A DNA stretch of 64,000 nt from the NCBI GenBank assembly GCA_003577305.1, contig QEVL01000004.1, positions 1 through 64,000 of the forward strand, written 5' to 3'. Each line of letters starts with the position of its first letter. The first letter of the stretch is position 1. The notes below the pieces were generated by a model that was given only the letters and a program-made list of their open reading frames with translations, did not search any database and was not told where the DNA came from. Shown one piece after another: positions 52,095 through 64,000 of this stretch. Origin of the DNA: Burkholderiales bacterium (lineage in GTDB: Bacteria > Pseudomonadota > Gammaproteobacteria > Burkholderiales > Burkholderiaceae_E). The translations under genes and the position numbers were made by a program.

Positions 52095-52275
52095 TTTCCG
52101 GGCTCTCCGACCTCGCATCGATCAACAGCGCGATCTTACGCGAGACCGATCGGTCGCGCGCCGAGCGTGGACATGCGGCCGGGCGCGACGCGCAGATCGG
52201 GCGCGCCGCGGCGGTCGCCGTCCGCGCCCGCCCGCGCTATGCTCGGGTTCCATCGGGTTTCGGGGCGACTCGCGC

Positions 52276-57081: not shown

Positions 57082-57459
57082 TCAGCGCACTTGCCGGCCG
57101 GGCCCGCAGGGCGGCCGTGCCGGGGCTGCGCCGGCCACCTCGTCGACCACCGCGCGCAACCGGCGCGCCAGCCCCCCGAGATGCGCATCGGCGAGGAAGC
57201 GAGGGGGCGGGGCGCCGGCGGCGAGCACGGGCGGGGTCGCCGGAAAGACCTCCAGCGAATCGGTTTCGCGCAGCAGATGGCCGAGCGTGGCGGGATGCCC
57301 GTCGAGCAGGAGCCGGCCGACTTCCGTGTGCGGCACGCCGATTGCCTCGATCGCGTGCTTGGCGCTCGCGCGCCGGGCGCAGGGCCGGTCGAAGCTGCGA
57401 TCGCGAAGCTCCGGTCGAAGGAGGTCGTTGAGTTCGCCGTGGAAGCGAAAGTGCGGCAT
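57082..57459 (-). pseudogene. Truncated Mut7-C protein (Ub-like domain plus start of PIN-type RNase domain)
   Basis: From ATG 57459 the 125 residues start MPHFRFHGELNDLL and contain ASAKHAIEAIGVPHTEVGRL (about 30-49), the pattern of the ubiquitin-like domain of Mut7-C proteins. RFLADAHLGGLARRLR (about 87-102) starts the Mut7-C RNase domain, where RFLxDxHLGRLARxLR is expected. The frame then leaves the family and ends after about 20 unrelated residues at 57082. Intact proteins have about 240-250 residues. The gene is divergent from the helicase, 48 bp apart. Confidence 0.7.
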
Positions 57460-57507
57460 CGGTCGGGGCTGTGGCAAGCTGCTCGCAAGAAGGGGCGAGG
57501 CACCAGC

Positions 57508-60500
57508 ATGGACGATAACGCGGCCGCGAGCCTGGTGCCGGGCACGTCGGAGTGGCTCGCCTTCGCATTCATCCGCGACGCGCCGCGCATGCCCGGCGGC
57601 CAGTACCTGGGCATCGAAACGGCGCCAGTCGAACCCTGGCCGCATCAGCGCGTGGTTGCGCGCCGGCTCGTCGACGACTGGCCCCTCTCCTGGATGCTGT
57701 GCGACGAAGTGGGTTTGGGCAAGACGATCGAGGCGGGGCTCGCCCTGCGCGCGCTGCGCATGTCCGGCTGCGTCCGGCGCGCACTGATCGCGGTGCCCGC
57801 AGGCATCGTTGCGCAATGGCAGCGCGAGATGGCCGACAAGTGCCTGCTGCCGTTCGCCCGCGTGCTCGGCGGGCCGCAGCCCCGTCACCGGCTGTTGTTG
57901 CCGCACGAGCACGAGCGTGCCGCCACCTCGCTGTTCGAACCGGATCTGGCGATCGTTTCGACCGGGTTGATCACCAGGCGCGAGCGCCAGCCCGAACTGA
58001 AGGATGCAGATGGCTGGGAGCTGGCGCTGCTCGATGAGGCACATTGTGCGCGCCGCTCGAACCCGACCGCCGCGCCCGATCGGCCGGCGCGCTGGACGCG
58101 CCTGTACCGGATTGCGCGCGACCTGCTGCGTCCGAAGGCGCATGCGCTGTGGCTCGCCACCGCGACGCCGATGCAGCTCGAGCCGATCGAGGCGATCGAT
58201 CTCGCATCGCTCACCCGGCGGCTCGGGCCGTTCGCGCTCGAACTCCGGGTCGCGCTCGCCTATTACGACCTGCTCGCGAAGCTGCGCGCCGGCGCCGAGC
58301 CCGAGCCGCTCGAATGGCGCTTTCTCGCGCGGGCGGCCAGACACGTGCTGCACTTCGATGCCGCGGCGGCGGCCTTCATCGAGCGCACAGCGATGCGCGG
58401 GCGTGCCGGCGCGGCGCTGCGACGCTGGCTCGAGGCCCCCGAGTCGGCCCGCGCCGCCCCGCCACGCTCGTTGCGCAAGGCGGTGCTGCGGCTGCTGTTC
58501 GCGGTCGCGCCGCTGTCGCGGGCCATGATGCGCCACGATCGCGGCCTGCTGCGCCGCTATCACCGGCAGGGACGCCTGCCTGCGCCGCTGCCTGTGCGCA
58601 AGGTGCACCTGCCCCCGATCCGGCTCACCGCCGCCGAGCGCGAAGTCTACGAACTCTTCGCGCCGTACTGCCGCGCGCTGGCCGATCAGGTCAGGGCGCA
58701 CAGCAGTCAGCGCATCGCGGTCGGCTTCATGCTGAGTTTTTTCGGCCTGCGCTTCGCATCGAGCTACAAGGCGATTCACGACACCCTGGTGCGGCGGCGC
58801 GACAAGGTCGTCGCCACGCTCGAAAGCGGAGCGCCGCAGTCACCCGGTGAAACGGGCCGCCGGGACGAACGCGACTGGGAGGAGCACGACTGGGAAGAGC
58901 GCGCCCACGACGAAGCCGATACGCCGGACGATGCGCTGCTGACGGCCGGCCTGCGCTGGCGCAGCCGGGTCGACCTCGCCTGGGAGGTCGAGCAGTTGAC
59001 CGTGCTGCTCGGGCGGCTCGCGGCGCTCGCGCAGCTGCGCTCGCCGAAAGTACGTGCGCTGCTGAAGGCACTGCGCGCACGCCGCGGCGCGGACAGGCGC
59101 CTGCGGCAGACCGTCGTGTTCACGCGCTTCTACGACACGCTGGCCGACCTGCAGGGCTGGATCGAGCGCGACGAACCGTCGGTGCGTCTGGGCGTGTTCT
59201 CCGGGCCGCGTTGCGCGTGGATGGATGCAAGCGGCGCGTGGCATCGCGCCAGCCGCGAGGAAGTGAAGCGCCGATTCGTGCGCGGCGAGATCGATTTGCT
59301 GTTGTGCACCGACGCTGCTGCCGAAGGGCTGAATCTCCAGGCGGCCGACCTGCTGGTCAATTTCGACCTGCCATGGAACCCGATGAAGCTCGAGCAGCGG
59401 ATCGGCCGGATCGATCGCATCGGCCAGCGCCATCGGATGATCCACGTGATCAACCTCGCCTACCCGGGTACGGTGGAAGAGGAGGTGTACGTCCGGCTGT
59501 TGCGGAGGATCCGGGATGCGACCGGCACCGTGGGCAGGCAACCCCTGGTCGTGCTGCCGGTGAATCCGGCCGACCTGCGCCGGCTGTCCACCGGCGAACT
59601 GACCCCGGAGCGTCTCGAGACGATGGTGCGCGAGCGGCTGCGGCGGGTGCGCGAGCGCGCCGAATCGATGTCGCCCACCGCGGCCGAACTGCACGCGCTG
59701 TACCGCGAACTCGAAGACGAGGCTGCGGCGACACGGCTGCCGATCACGCTCGCGCAGGTTTTCGAGACGCTGTCCGGTTCGGCCACCCTGAAAGCGCTGG
59801 GCAGCGAGCGGATCGAGACGCCTCACGGGCCGGCGCTGCTGGTTCGCGGAATTCCCGGCTGCGAGCCATGCCTGCTCACCGTGTCGCGCGCGCTGTACGA
59901 GCGCGGCCTGCCCGAGCGCGACGAGCCGCTGCGCTTTGCGACCTGGGGCGAACCCGTCTTCGACGCACTGGTGGCGTACGTGCTCGCACGCGGCAGTGCC
60001 CCTGCGGGTTTCGCGCGCGCCAGTGCGCAGGTAGCGGAGACGCCGGCGAGCGTCGTCTCCTGGGTCGTGGCGACGCGTGCTCGCACGGTCGTCGTCGAGG
60101 AGTTCGCGCAACTCGCCGGGCTGCGACCGGCGCGCGTGCGTGCGCCAGACGCTGTGGCGCTCGAACGGGCCGCACAGCGCGCCGCCGCCCGCGCCGAAGC
60201 CGTTGCGCGCCTGAGGCGGGTCGAGCAGGACGCAGCACTGGCCGCGGCAACCCATCACCGGCTGCACCGTGCGCTGGCCGCAAAACTGGTTGCCGCCGCA
60301 CCGAAGGGAAGCCGGCTGGGCGAACTGGAGGCACATCTGCCCGATGGCACGCGCACGCTGCGCATTCCGAAACTGGATCCGGCGCTGGTCGCAGCCGAAG
60401 CACGATACGGCCTGCTCGAGACCAGGGGTGATGCGGTCTACCTGCCGGCCTTCTACCAGCGCTGCCTGGTAGCGACGCTGCAGCGCGAACGACTGGCGCT

Positions 60501-60591
60501 CAGGCGCGCACGGCGCCGCACCGGCGAAGAGGAGATCGCGCTCGCGGAACTGGCAGAGCGATTGCTGCGCGAAGCGAGTCTGATCCGATGA
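57508..60591 (+). CDS. SNF2-type helicase / DNA-dependent ATPase, orphan
   Basis: A 1,027-residue superfamily 2 protein. The N-terminal ATPase lobe has PHQ..A motif near 45-52, motif I DEVGLGKTIEAG (66-77) and the DEAH box LLDEAHCARR near 174-183. The second lobe has VVFTRFYDTLADLQGW near 535-550, motif V CTDAAAEGLNLQ near 600 and motif VI QRIGRIDRIGQ near 630-640. A roughly 350-residue C-terminal region, Arg/Ala/Glu-rich with likely coiled coils, is not recognised. Similar helicases belong to RapA/HepA or to defence systems such as DISARM (DrmD), but no methyltransferase, DrmA/B or nuclease partner is adjacent. A purine-rich AAGGGGCGAGG precedes ATG 57508. Confidence 0.85.
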   Translation: MDDNAAASLVPGTSEWLAFAFIRDAPRMPGGQYLGIETAPVEPWPHQRVVARRLVDDWPLSWMLCDEVGLGKTIEAGLALRALRMSGCVRRALIAVPAGIVAQWQREMADKCLLPFARVLGGPQPRHRLLLPHEHERAATSLFEPDLAIVSTGLITRRERQPELKDADGWELALLDEAHCARRSNPTAAPDRPARWTRLYRIARDLLRPKAHALWLATATPMQLEPIEAIDLASLTRRLGPFALELRVALAYYDLLAKLRAGAEPEPLEWRFLARAARHVLHFDAAAAAFIERTAMRGRAGAALRRWLEAPESARAAPPRSLRKAVLRLLFAVAPLSRAMMRHDRGLLRRYHRQGRLPAPLPVRKVHLPPIRLTAAEREVYELFAPYCRALADQVRAHSSQRIAVGFMLSFFGLRFASSYKAIHDTLVRRRDKVVATLESGAPQSPGETGRRDERDWEEHDWEERAHDEADTPDDALLTAGLRWRSRVDLAWEVEQLTVLLGRLAALAQLRSPKVRALLKALRARRGADRRLRQTVVFTRFYDTLADLQGWIERDEPSVRLGVFSGPRCAWMDASGAWHRASREEVKRRFVRGEIDLLLCTDAAAEGLNLQAADLLVNFDLPWNPMKLEQRIGRIDRIGQRHRMIHVINLAYPGTVEEEVYVRLLRRIRDATGTVGRQPLVVLPVNPADLRRLSTGELTPERLETMVRERLRRVRERAESMSPTAAELHALYRELEDEAAATRLPITLAQVFETLSGSATLKALGSERIETPHGPALLVRGIPGCEPCLLTVSRALYERGLPERDEPLRFATWGEPVFDALVAYVLARGSAPAGFARASAQVAETPASVVSWVVATRARTVVVEEFAQLAGLRPARVRAPDAVALERAAQRAAARAEAVARLRRVEQDAALAAATHHRLHRALAAKLVAAAPKGSRLGELEAHLPDGTRTLRIPKLDPALVAAEARYGLLETRGDAVYLPAFYQRCLVATLQRERLALRRARRRTGEEEIALAELAERLLREASLIR

Positions 60592-60696
60592 CGACGGGCT
60601 TCGACGCCCGGCGCCAGGCATCGGCCAACCGGTTGCACCGCGCAGAAGGCCGAACAGGCTTGTCCGCGATGCCAGGGGGGAACCGCACCGATCGGG

Positions 60697-60726
60697 TTGC
60701 AGCTCTTGCGTGGACGGGGGCATAAT
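60697..60726 (+). promoter_or_regulatory. Promoter of the integrase-TetR chimera
   Basis: TTGCAG (-35, 60697-60702) and CATAAT (-10, 60721-60726) with an 18 bp spacer. Transcription would start near 60733, and the leader contains the AGGAG Shine-Dalgarno at about 60743-60747 before ATG 60757. This is the type of promoter and ribosome site found before intact P4-type integrase genes. Confidence 0.65.
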
Positions 60727-60756
60727 TCGGGGCAGATTTGCATAGGAGCCGAAAAA

Positions 60757-61848
60757 ATGCCCCTGACTGACATCGTCATTCGCCGCGCTCGGCCTGCCGC
60801 CAAACCCGTGCGCATATACGACGGCGGTGGGCTCTACATCGAAATTTCGCCTGCTGGCGGGAAGCTCTGGCGGTTCAAGTACCGATTCGACGGAAAGGAG
60901 AAGAGGCTGGCACTGGGGGCGTATCCTGCCGTCCCGATTGTCGGATACAGGGACAAGGCCACGAGCCAGTGGATTCGAGGTGCGAGGGAAAAGCGCGACG
61001 AAGCACGGCGACTGCTGGCCAACGGGATCGACCCCGCCGAAAGCCGCAAGGCGCAGAAGTCGGCGAACGCCGGGCGTGCATCGGGAGCGAAGCGCAGCGG
61101 CCTTCCGGACGAGACGACGTGGGGCTGTCGCGTTCCCGGGCGAAGAGCGCAGCGGGAACTGAGAGAAGAGGTGCTCTACGAGACCGCGGCCCGCTGGTTC
61201 AACAGCCACGGCTATCACGGAACGTCGTTGAGCGACGTGGCGAAGGAACTCGGGATCACGAAGGCGGCGCTGTACAACTACGTCTCGAGCAAGAGGGAAT
61301 TGCTCTACAACATACACCTCCGCTCGCTTCGAGCGGCGCAGGCTGCCCAGGACAGCGCCGCCACCGAGAGCACCGGGCTCGGCAGGGTCCGGAAGATGAT
61401 CTTCAATTATGTCGCGGCGATCACCGAGTCGCCGACGGTGACGTTCATCCTGCTGGAAGACGGGGCCCTCGCTCCGGAGCAGGCCGAGGAGATACTGGCT
61501 GCCCGGCGCGCGCTCGATCACCGGTTCCGTGGTTGGGTCGCTGCGGGAGTACGCGACAAGTCGATCCTGGCATGCGATCCACAGCTGGTGTCTCTGCTAG
61601 TCACTGGGAGCATGGCGTGGCTGACGAAATGGTATGACCCGAGAGGACCGTGGACCGGCGAACAGGTGGCCGAAGCGATGAGTGCGCTATACGCGCGAAT
61701 GCTGAGCAGTGCGCCCATCGGCCCATTGCCGGGCAGTGTCGGACAGGTCGTTCCCGAAGGCGGACTCTGGATGCCGCCAGTCGCACGGCCACGCGGTGAC
61801 GGATCCCGAACGGGCCGACGGGGCGGTCCGCACGACATTGACACGTGA
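60757..61848 (+). CDS. Chimeric protein: P4-type integrase N-terminus fused in frame to a TetR regulator
   Basis: A single 363-residue frame. Residues 1 to about 105 are the DUF4102 arm-binding domain of a P4/CP4-57-type tyrosine integrase (MPLTDIVIRRARPAAKP, YDGGGLYIEI, LWRFKYRFDGKEKRLALG, EARRLLANGIDPAESRKA). An insertion of about 12 residues (YRDKATSQWIRG) lies before AREKRDEARR. The catalytic integrase domain is absent. From about residue 128 a TetR regulator starts (RAQRELREEVLYETAARWF), with the helix-turn-helix LSDVAKELGITKAALYNYV near 160-178 and a complete ligand-binding half to the end. The TetR part has no ATG of its own in this frame, so the integrase promoter and ribosome site may drive it. 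Its stop codon lies inside the palindrome of the next promoter. Confidence 0.8.
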   Translation: MPLTDIVIRRARPAAKPVRIYDGGGLYIEISPAGGKLWRFKYRFDGKEKRLALGAYPAVPIVGYRDKATSQWIRGAREKRDEARRLLANGIDPAESRKAQKSANAGRASGAKRSGLPDETTWGCRVPGRRAQRELREEVLYETAARWFNSHGYHGTSLSDVAKELGITKAALYNYVSSKRELLYNIHLRSLRAAQAAQDSAATESTGLGRVRKMIFNYVAAITESPTVTFILLEDGALAPEQAEEILAARRALDHRFRGWVAAGVRDKSILACDPQLVSLLVTGSMAWLTKWYDPRGPWTGEQVAEAMSALYARMLSSAPIGPLPGSVGQVVPEGGLWMPPVARPRGDGSRTGRRGGPHDIDT

Positions 61849-61866
61849 CCGAGCGGTCACTAAACT
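61838..61866 (+). promoter_or_regulatory. Strong promoter with TetR-type operator in the spacer
   Basis: TTGACA (-35, 61838-61843) and TAAACT (-10, 61861-61866) are 17 bp apart. The spacer consists of one base plus a 16 bp inverted repeat GTGACCG-AG-CGGTCAC (61845-61860, perfect 7 bp arms). Length and symmetry fit a TetR-family dimer site, and binding would exclude RNA polymerase. The site overlaps the last codons of the integrase-TetR gene, so the likely regulator is encoded immediately upstream. It drives the binding-protein gene at 61987. Confidence 0.8.
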
Positions 61867-61986
61867 GATCGAACGGTTGGTATTGCTCGGCGTCGAGCGC
61901 CTGCGAAGCGATCGAACGGACTCGGGCATCGCCGGGGGGCGGATGCACAACGCGGTCTCGATCGTTCACTCACGAGAGGAAGGGAC

Positions 61987-63153
61987 ATGTACTGGAGACT
62001 GATGACGCTGGGCGCCGCGCTGGCGCTCGTGGCGGGATCCGTGGCAGGGCAGACCCAGGGCGTGAGCAAGACCGAGATCGTGGTGGGCTCCCTGCAGGAC
62101 CTGTCGGGCCCGATCGCCAGCCTTGGCAAGGCGAGCCGCAACGGGATGCAGATGAGGATCGACGAACAGAACGAGAAAGGCGGCGTTCACGGCCGCAAGA
62201 TCCGGTTCCTCGTCGAAGACCATGCATACGACCCCAAGCGTGCGGTCCTCGCGACGCACAAGTTGCTTGAACAGGACAAGATCTTCCTGATGCTCGGGCA
62301 CATCGGCACGCCGACGAACGTGGCGGTGATGCCGCTGCTGTTCGAGCGCAACGTCATCAATCTGTTTCCATTCAGCCCGGCGAGACAGATGTTCGACCCG
62401 GTGCATCGTCTGAAGTTCGCGTCTTTCACGCCCTACCACGACCAGGTCCGGCAGTCCGTCCCTGTGCTCGTCAGGCAGAAGGGACTGAAGAAACCCTGCA
62501 TCATCTACCAGGACGACGACTACGGTATCGAGCACCTCAAGGGCGCGGAGGAGGGCCTGAAAACAATCAACCTGCAATGGATCGAGAAGACCTCGTACAA
62601 GCGAGGCGCCACCGACTTCTCGTCGCAGGTCGCGCGCATGAAAAGCGCGGGTTGCGACCTGGTTGTTCTCGGCACGCTCGTAAGGGAGACGATCGGAACC
62701 GTTTCCGAGGCACGCAAGACGGGCTTCAGTCCGGTCTTTCTCGGCACGACTGGGCTCTACTATGACCAGATCCACAAGCTCGGTGGCCCCGCGATGGAGG
62801 GGATCATCGCCACCCATACCGCTGCGGTTCCCTATCCGGACAGCGGCTCCGAAGCGGTTCGGGCGTGGATCCAACGATACAAGAGCAAGTTCGGCGAAGA
62901 TCCGTGGATGCACTCCGTCTACGGATATGCAAACGCAGAGGCCATGATCACCGCGCTCGAGAAAGCCGGGCCCGATCTCACCACCGATTCGCTCATCAGC
63001 GCGATCGAAGCGACCCGGTTTCCCACGGACATTTTCGGCAGTGCCGAAATGACCTTCAGCCCCACCAAGCGCCTCGGGTCGAGTCTTTACCGCTTTGCCG
63101 AGATCCGCAACGGTCGCTGGGTGACGACGTCCGACTACTTCGGCGAGCGCTGA
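61987..63153 (+). CDS. ABC transporter substrate-binding protein (LivJ/LivK type)
   Basis: A 388-residue periplasmic binding protein of the branched-chain amino acid/amide family (Peripla_BP_6). Signal peptide at about 1-22 (MYWRLMTLGAALALVAGSVA, then GQT). The mature part begins TEIVVGSLQDLSGPIASLGKA, the usual lobe I motif, with GHIGTPTNVAVMPLL near 100-115 and YQDDDYGIEHLKGAEEGLK near 172-190. The start is preceded by GAGAGGAAGGGAC. The ligand is not deducible, though the downstream acyl-CoA dehydrogenase suggests an aromatic or fatty acid. Codon usage is less GC-biased than in the core block. Confidence 0.9.
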   Translation: MYWRLMTLGAALALVAGSVAGQTQGVSKTEIVVGSLQDLSGPIASLGKASRNGMQMRIDEQNEKGGVHGRKIRFLVEDHAYDPKRAVLATHKLLEQDKIFLMLGHIGTPTNVAVMPLLFERNVINLFPFSPARQMFDPVHRLKFASFTPYHDQVRQSVPVLVRQKGLKKPCIIYQDDDYGIEHLKGAEEGLKTINLQWIEKTSYKRGATDFSSQVARMKSAGCDLVVLGTLVRETIGTVSEARKTGFSPVFLGTTGLYYDQIHKLGGPAMEGIIATHTAAVPYPDSGSEAVRAWIQRYKSKFGEDPWMHSVYGYANAEAMITALEKAGPDLTTDSLISAIEATRFPTDIFGSAEMTFSPTKRLGSSLYRFAEIRNGRWVTTSDYFGER

Positions 63154-63237: not shown

Positions 63238-64000
63238 ATGCATCTGGAATTCACGCCCGAAGATCAGGCTTTCCGCGCCATCGTGCGCGGGTTCATCGCT
63301 TCGAACCTGCCGACTGACATCGCGGCCAGGGTCAACGGTCGCCAACCGCTCGTCAAGGACGACTACACTCGATGGCAGAAGATCCTGCACGGCAGAGGCT
63401 GGGGCGCGCCCGCATGGCCCCGCGAATTCGGCGGTGCCGGATGGACGCCGATCCAGCAATACATCTTCGAGGAAGAATGCGCGGCCGCCGGGGCGCCGAT
63501 GCAGCTTCCGTTCGGCCCGAAGATGGTCGGTCCGGTCATCATCGCATTCGGCAACGAGTTCCAGCAGAGGCGATTTCTCCCTGGCATCGCTTCGGGCGAA
63601 GAGTGGTGGTGCCAAGGCTTCTCCGAACCAGATGCCGGTTCTGATCTGGCGTCCTTGAAGACGCGTGCCGAACGGGTTCCAGGCCCGGCCGGCGGGCGCT
63701 ACCTGGTCAACGGGCAGAAGACCTGGACCACCTATGCCCATTACGCCGACTGGATCTTCTGTCTGGTGCGTACCCGAAGCGAGGGTCGCCCGCAAGAAGG
63801 GATTTCGTTCCTCCTGATCGACATGAAGACGCCCGGCATCAGCGTGCGTCCCATCGCCATGCTCGATGGAGCGCGCGAGATCAACGAAGTGTGGTTCGAA
63901 AACGTCGAGGTTCCGGTGTCCGGCCTCGTCGGCAACGAGAACAGGGGCTGGGCGTATGCCAAGTTCCTGCTCGACCAGGAACGCACCGACATCGCCCGGG
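63238..64000 (+). CDS. Acyl-CoA dehydrogenase, 3' end outside window
   Basis: The frame is open from ATG 63238 to the window edge (254 codons seen of about 390). It starts MHLEFTPEDQAFRAIVRGFI, the usual acyl-CoA dehydrogenase N-terminal helix; WPREFGGAGWTPIQQYIFEEE near 62-82 and GFSEPDAGSDLASLKTRA near 128-145 are the FAD-dependent family signatures, followed by LVNGQKTWTTYAHYADW. It would oxidise a CoA thioester with FAD. CAGGA precedes the start. It is probably co-transcribed with the binding protein and controlled by the promoter at 61838. Confidence 0.92.
   Translation, partial: MHLEFTPEDQAFRAIVRGFIASNLPTDIAARVNGRQPLVKDDYTRWQKILHGRGWGAPAWPREFGGAGWTPIQQYIFEEECAAAGAPMQLPFGPKMVGPVIIAFGNEFQQRRFLPGIASGEEWWCQGFSEPDAGSDLASLKTRAERVPGPAGGRYLVNGQKTWTTYAHYADWIFCLVRTRSEGRPQEGISFLLIDMKTPGISVRPIAMLDGAREINEVWFENVEVPVSGLVGNENRGWAYAKFLLDQERTDIAR

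Follow-up and report, generated by a model that had tools for sequence, protein, structure and literature searches.

A gene of a Burkholderiales bacterium encodes, in one reading frame, the arm domain of a P4-type integrase followed by a complete TetR-family regulator, and its integrase-derived arm is under purifying selection. The gene is predicted to yield a single product of about 40 kDa in which two DNA-binding modules are combined. We lean, with some reserve, towards the explanation that the domesticated arm gives feedback at the gene's own, integrase-derived control region and that the TetR part represses transport and acyl-CoA genes.

The fused frame and its distribution

The window, i.e. 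the whole stretch of DNA that was analyzed, comprises 64,000 nucleotides (contig QEVL01000004.1, positions 1 to 64,000), and the features discussed are collected in Table 1. The first-pass annotation had described one uninterrupted frame at 60757-61848 which starts with a DUF4102 arm domain, passes through about 25 residues without clear homology into a complete TetR regulator, has lost the tyrosine-recombinase catalytic domain and leaves the TetR part with an internal GTG only and no ATG of its own. All of these points were borne out. Translation of the 363 codons contained no internal stop, and Pfam matches were obtained for Arm-DNA-bind_3 (E 1.6e-22, 79.8 bits, cut-off 27), TetR_N (residues 141-183, E 9.6e-13, 48.1 bits, cut-off 24) and TetR_C_24 (residues 209-316, E 4.1e-24, 85.5 bits, cut-off 26.4), with a fast-evolving linker following the arm. 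Neither Phage_integrase nor Phage_int_M gave a match in the 363 residues at E<=0.01, and the stretch from the arm to the TetR domain has a single in-frame ATG, GTG or TTG, the GTG at 61171-61173. The closest solved chains by sequence were the integrases 3ju0 and 3jtz for the arm and the TetR-family proteins 3vpr and 3dcf for the rest of the fusion; an AlphaFold model from six sequences was poor, with a mean pLDDT of 47.1.

Phage_int_M starts at residue 108 or 112 in two intact relatives, which also have Phage_integrase, indicating that the fusion junction lies near a domain boundary. The arm domain of the fusion contains a stretch, IVGYRDKATSQWIRG, which most arm domains are without. Since a similar insertion is present in the complete integrases L013, L063 and L115, this stretch is not damage, and decay of the arm was ruled out as its explanation.

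Table 1. Features of the fusion gene, its control region and the neighboring transport operon (window coordinates)
Feature	Position	Strand	Remark
Direct repeat GGGGCA-N6-GGGGCA, predicted arm-type sites	60717..60734	+	12-bp period; shared with upstream regions of intact relatives
-10-like hexamer CATAAT	60721-60726	+	inside repeat; read by eye
Possible ribosome site AGGAG	60744..60748	+	read from sequence
Arm-TetR fusion gene	60757..61848	+	363 aa, ATG to TGA
Inverted copy GGGGCAT	60757..60763	-	formed by start codon and codons 2-3 (ATGCCCC)
Arm-DNA-bind_3 (DUF4102) domain	60763..61056	+	residues 3-100
Linker	61057..61119	+	residues 101-121; selection undetectable
TetR part	61120..61704	+	homology to unfused orthologues from about residue 122
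Internal GTG	61171..61173	+	sole alternative start near TetR domain
Promoter-like site of transport gene, TTGACA-N17-TAAACT	61838..61866	+	consensus scan
Predicted TetR operator ACCGAGCGGT	61848..61857	+	palindrome in -35/-10 spacer
ABC-transporter substrate-binding protein (Peripla_BP_6), predicted target gene	61987..63153	+	
Acyl-CoA dehydrogenase gene	63238..64000	+	extends past window to 64446

The whole fusion was recovered from three other genomes of the same genus among 61 searched (own included), with identities of 84% (G006), 83% (G015) and 75% (G004, over residues 1-318) to the genome of the window (G000). A search of 74 genomes of the family placed the fusion in 4 of the 18 genomes of the genus and an unfused orthologue in one more (G002); at E<=1e-40 no arm-TetR fusion beyond these four was found in the 74 genomes, and the 56 genomes of other genera gave no match. 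At E<=1e-33 the window's fusion was the only one in samples of 399 genomes of the order, 369 of the class and 398 of the phylum, where at most five candidates per genome were scored and distant cases may be missed. Of the plasmid records, 285 had a match, and none of these spanned 80% of the query at a single location. Named genomes, scanned with patterns from the TetR part only, yielded five loci. Three are fusions from metagenome assemblies of Burkholderiaceae bacterium (L038, L039, L040) and two are unfused orthologues, from Burkholderiales bacterium 70-64 (L041) and Pseudomonadota bacterium KLAP178 (L042); L038, L039, L040 and L041 were taken to be the same loci as those in G015, G006, G004 and G002, respectively. 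The unfused frames open with their own ATG plus a short tail (the L042 start being taken at the inner ATG 2279) and align to the fusion from about residue 122-125.

All of the members come from metagenome assemblies or draft genomes, as an assembly error, or a decayed gene with an accidentally open frame, would have it. We consider this explanation hardly credible and count it as already refuted, because the identical junction is present in four assemblies and is thus not an artefact, and because the arm is under selection (Table 2). The recurrence also disposes of a sequencing indel, which the first-pass annotation had listed among the ways its reading could fail when it suggested a search for other genomes with the same junction.

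In all four fusions the downstream neighbor is alike, a substrate-binding protein gene. The upstream neighbor is a long frame in G000, G006 and G015, with SNF2/helicase domains in G000, and an acyl-CoA dehydrogenase gene in G004. In the window this upstream frame is a long SNF2/helicase-type gene at 57091-60591 (Helicase_C 7.1e-18, SNF2-rel_dom 4.3e-10) which ends 165 bp ahead of the fusion's ATG, and a matching frame occupies the same place in G006 and G015. A broken arm-domain remnant with one stop (G004:C72:219-386) was seen about 10.5 kb upstream of the G004 fusion, on the same contig.

Selection on the arm domain

Nei-Gojobori counts were made on all six pairs of the four fusions (Table 2), and purifying selection on the arm is about as strong as that on the TetR part in five of the six. 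Fisher tests for five of the six pairs gave p values of 2.8e-8, 6.5e-6, 1.3e-10, 9e-15 and 5.2e-7 for the arm and of 1, 1, 0.4, 0.16 and 0.67 for the linker; the pairs have branches in common, so that neither these values nor the omega values are independent. Since it is under purifying selection, the arm must be translated and useful, and a region that merely supplied a promoter would not show such a pattern. The objection that the integrase part might go untranslated is thereby answered. Selection on the arm does not prove that it binds DNA.

Table 2. Omega values for the three segments of the fusion in each pair of genomes (linker, 21 codons; G006/G015 is a very close pair)
Pair	Arm	TetR part	Linker
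G000/G006	0.174	0.119	1.0
G000/G015	0.236	0.114	0.94
G000/G004	0.186	0.159	1.5
G006/G004	0.129	0.196	2.3
G015/G004	0.156	0.195	4.3
G006/G015	0.026	0.211	0.57

The same result bears on whether the TetR part is made alone from the internal GTG, besides or instead of the fusion. This GTG is conserved in five of five sequences and is preceded by a purine-rich stretch, GAGAGAAGAG, as a working start might be. However, selection on the arm means that the long form is made, initiation at the GTG would drop R125, R133, E134, L135 and E137, all invariant in the six fused and unfused orthologues, and the same GTG lies inside unfused genes which have their own ATG. We consider such a start quite unlikely.

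A tree was built from 41 arm domains, 33 of them viral, selected from 80 that were fetched. The fused arms formed one clade with support of 100/99, which fits a single fusion event; the tree does not name the donor, and no donor integrase was identified among the 41 arms. The distance of the fused arms was about the same to L063, where the insertion is present, as to L064, where it is absent, and L013 fell elsewhere.

Control regions of the transport operon and of the fusion gene

A consensus scan of 60560-62000 reported a single site, the TTGACA-N17-TAAACT ahead of the transport gene (shuffle mean 0.2). TTGACA with a TetR-type palindrome in the 17-bp spacer is present at all six loci, fused and unfused; the palindrome is exactly ACCGATCGGT in L038, L039 and L042, has one change in G000 and L041 and two in L040. 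When five whole genomes were searched for TTGACA-N4-ACCGATCGGT with up to two mismatches, there was one occurrence each in G000, G006 and G015, two in G004 and four in G002; in every genome but G004, where there was a tie, the best match lay at this operon. A reversed control pattern also matched, with one hit each in G000 and G006 and none in G004, G015 or G002, so the count alone is weak and it is the position of the predicted operator that constitutes the evidence. The only exact ACCGATCGGT in the window, at 52145-52154, is without TTGACA at the operator spacing, and a second operator-like site with two mismatches was seen in G002 (G002:C26:65924-65943), some 11 kb ahead of the unfused regulator gene. 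As for the genes themselves, in G000 a second acyl-CoA dehydrogenase gene follows the first downstream of the transport gene, in G004 the gene after the substrate-binding gene encodes a permease, and in G002 a permease is encoded after the unfused regulator, with the substrate-binding orthologue about 6 kb further on.

Upstream of the fusion itself, the direct repeat GGGGCA-N6-GGGGCA is present in all four genomes with its end 21-32 bp ahead of the ATG, and in each of them CATAAT lies within the repeat and the motif recurs inverted at the start codon. Among intact integrases, L017 (period 12) and L014 (period 13) have GGGGCA repeats with both the CATAAT and the inverted copy, and L016 and L013 have related layouts. 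The first-pass annotation had proposed that a mobile-element remnant supplied promoter, ribosome site and a second DNA-binding domain. As far as the sequence tells, the domain and a 5' control region did come with the remnant. The promoter and ribosome site stand on narrower ground: the sigma-70 consensus scan of 60560-62000 in G000 scored no promoter upstream of the fusion, and a clear ribosome site is present in this genome only, the other three fusions being without it. By eye, a weak -35 candidate, TTGCGA, is found 17 bp before CATAAT in G015 and G006, and no good -35 hexamer in G000 or G004. We infer a promoter here from the likeness to integrase genes.

The arm could also be a useful cap which does not bind DNA, the fusion having given the TetR gene a start and a control region and the arm being kept for folding, solubility or dimer geometry. 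Purifying selection would look identical in that case, and in G000 the repeat pair is less perfect in one member, the base after the second GGGGCA being G and not T. Against such a cap, 28 columns, among them W38, R39, K41, R43, K47 and R50, are invariant between three fusion arms and four integrase arms, and the repeats have been kept in four of four fusions despite the different upstream neighbor in G004. On this evidence a non-binding arm is unlikely, though it deserves real weight.

The same repeats were found upstream of viral arm-domain genes. From the best 80 of 477 viral arm-domain loci, the 38 in which the match starts at base 196 or later were entered and three duplicates were dropped, leaving 35, for which 140 bp upstream plus 12 bases of the gene were examined. 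Within this set from the best 80 of 477, at least two GGGGCA sites on either strand were present in 30 of 35 loci, the density of the motif was 21.6 per kb in the upstream regions vs. 0.60 elsewhere in the same loci, and a pair with exactly six bases between was present in 25 of 35 loci vs. 8 of 6379 control windows. The period-12 pair is missing in the other 10, and when the upstream regions were grouped into 27 clusters the first member had the pair in 17. Among 14 integrase-type loci from protein searches (L004, L006, L013-L017, L019-L022, L028-L030), six have a pair with 3-20 bases between. The genus contains 55 arm-domain rows, six of which belong to the four fusions; compared by eye, one of the remaining 49 (G003:C1:1268885) has the pair just upstream. 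As the pair occurs at part of the arm-integrase loci, the repeats are a mark of some arm integrases only, among them the fusion's nearest relatives. The looser pattern GGGGCA-N4to12-GGGGCA is present in 18 of 18 genomes of the genus, in several of them no more commonly than its reversed control, while the form beginning GGGGCATAAT is present in 4 of the 18, each time at the fusion. No paper was found that describes GGGGCA repeats as integrase arm sites, in a search which included GGGGGCAT with integrase among its queries and covered a minority of the subscription journals.

That many viral arm integrases have these repeats upstream would also suit a role against mobile elements, the fusion covering the GGGGCA sites of P4-type elements that enter the cell and hindering their integration, or sensing them and linking their arrival to the transport operon. 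Such a role seems very improbable to us, since the genomes that carry the fusion still contain other arm-domain frames and the repeats next to the gene itself point to a simpler target. In two species we also saw tandem arm domains, with a 181-aa arm-domain frame just upstream of an arm-integrase-sized frame of 530 or 535 aa (G011:C26:146054-146769 and G017:C60:515-1230); the former is perhaps a separate arm-only protein.

A proposed circuit and its relation to known systems

In the explanation that we favor, autoregulation through the arm, a genomic-island integrase gene would have lost its core-binding and catalytic domains and the arm remnant would have been joined in frame, at the boundary that follows the arm domain, to a resident TetR gene controlling a transport/acyl-CoA operon, most likely once, in the ancestor of the four known species. 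The TetR part may have retained its old task at the transport promoter, where a dimer bound to the ACCGATCGGT-type palindrome in the -35/-10 spacer would block transcription until an inducer, perhaps an acyl-CoA or related acid, binds. The GGGGCA repeats at the start of the fusion gene would have come along with the integrase, and binding of the arm domains there would repress the gene, so that the level of the regulator would be set by feedback via the old integrase circuit. The fusion is thus predicted to bind two kinds of site, and one dimer might bridge the two, which lie 1.1 kb apart. Whether a single fusion event has in this way tied a metabolic operon and its regulator into one circuit, by feedback and possibly DNA looping over 1.1 kb, through two unrelated and separately selected DNA-binding modules of which one came from an integrase with its sites, we judge to be evenly balanced.

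The fusion has the same invariant arm residues as P4-type (IntSXT-group) integrases with DUF4102/Arm-DNA-bind_3 and the same GGGGCA repeats upstream as a subset of them, but these enzymes keep the core-binding and catalytic domains and the fusion is without both. Like TetR-family proteins with TetR_C_24 (3vpr, 3dcf), it has complete TetR_N and TetR_C_24 domains and a predicted palindromic operator inside a promoter; it differs from them by an extra, unrelated N-terminal DNA-binding domain of about 100 residues.

Autorepression by integrases is known. In the portion of the KplE1 report available to us (PMC2951348), IntS represses its own gene, an arm site lies over the -10 box, the core site is not needed, repression was not relieved by any single change of an arm site, and the arm sites have TAAA in common; the integrase (intI) of PAI I536 also represses its own gene, according to the accessible part of PMC7286903. 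By inference from these two systems, the fusion may repress itself as well. As with the arm site of KplE1 intS, repeats that could be arm sites overlap a -10-like hexamer of its own start region, with GGGGCA in place of the TAAA of KplE1; unlike these autoregulated integrases, the fusion protein is unable to recombine DNA. Hosts have also co-opted transcription factors of mobile elements, among them Ner/SfsB and antitoxins (PMC8987985), and in these cases, as in the fusion, a mobile-element DNA-binding part serves host regulation. In none of the cases in the text available from that source is the arm domain of an integrase fused to a regulator of the host, as it is here. No arm-TetR fusion was found in the published literature covered, which took in a minority of the subscription journals, and neither such a fusion nor GGGGCA arm sites were seen in the available portions of PMC8138268, PMC2951348, PMC7286903, PMC3091744 and PMC8987985. 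Reuse of mobile-element DNA binding and autorepression by an integrase are each already known; what is new is that the two would be joined in one selected protein.

We propose GGGGCA repeats with a 12-bp period as candidate arm sites in a sizeable subset of P4-type integrases, many of them viral. If the proposed explanation is true, the fusion would be a clean case in which domain fusion brought the DNA-binding domain of a mobile element into host regulation. Orthologues with and without the fusion exist alongside intact relatives of the integrase, and the sequence shows candidate sites for each domain. In this system it can be tested directly whether a fusion is able to carry its own regulatory circuit with it.
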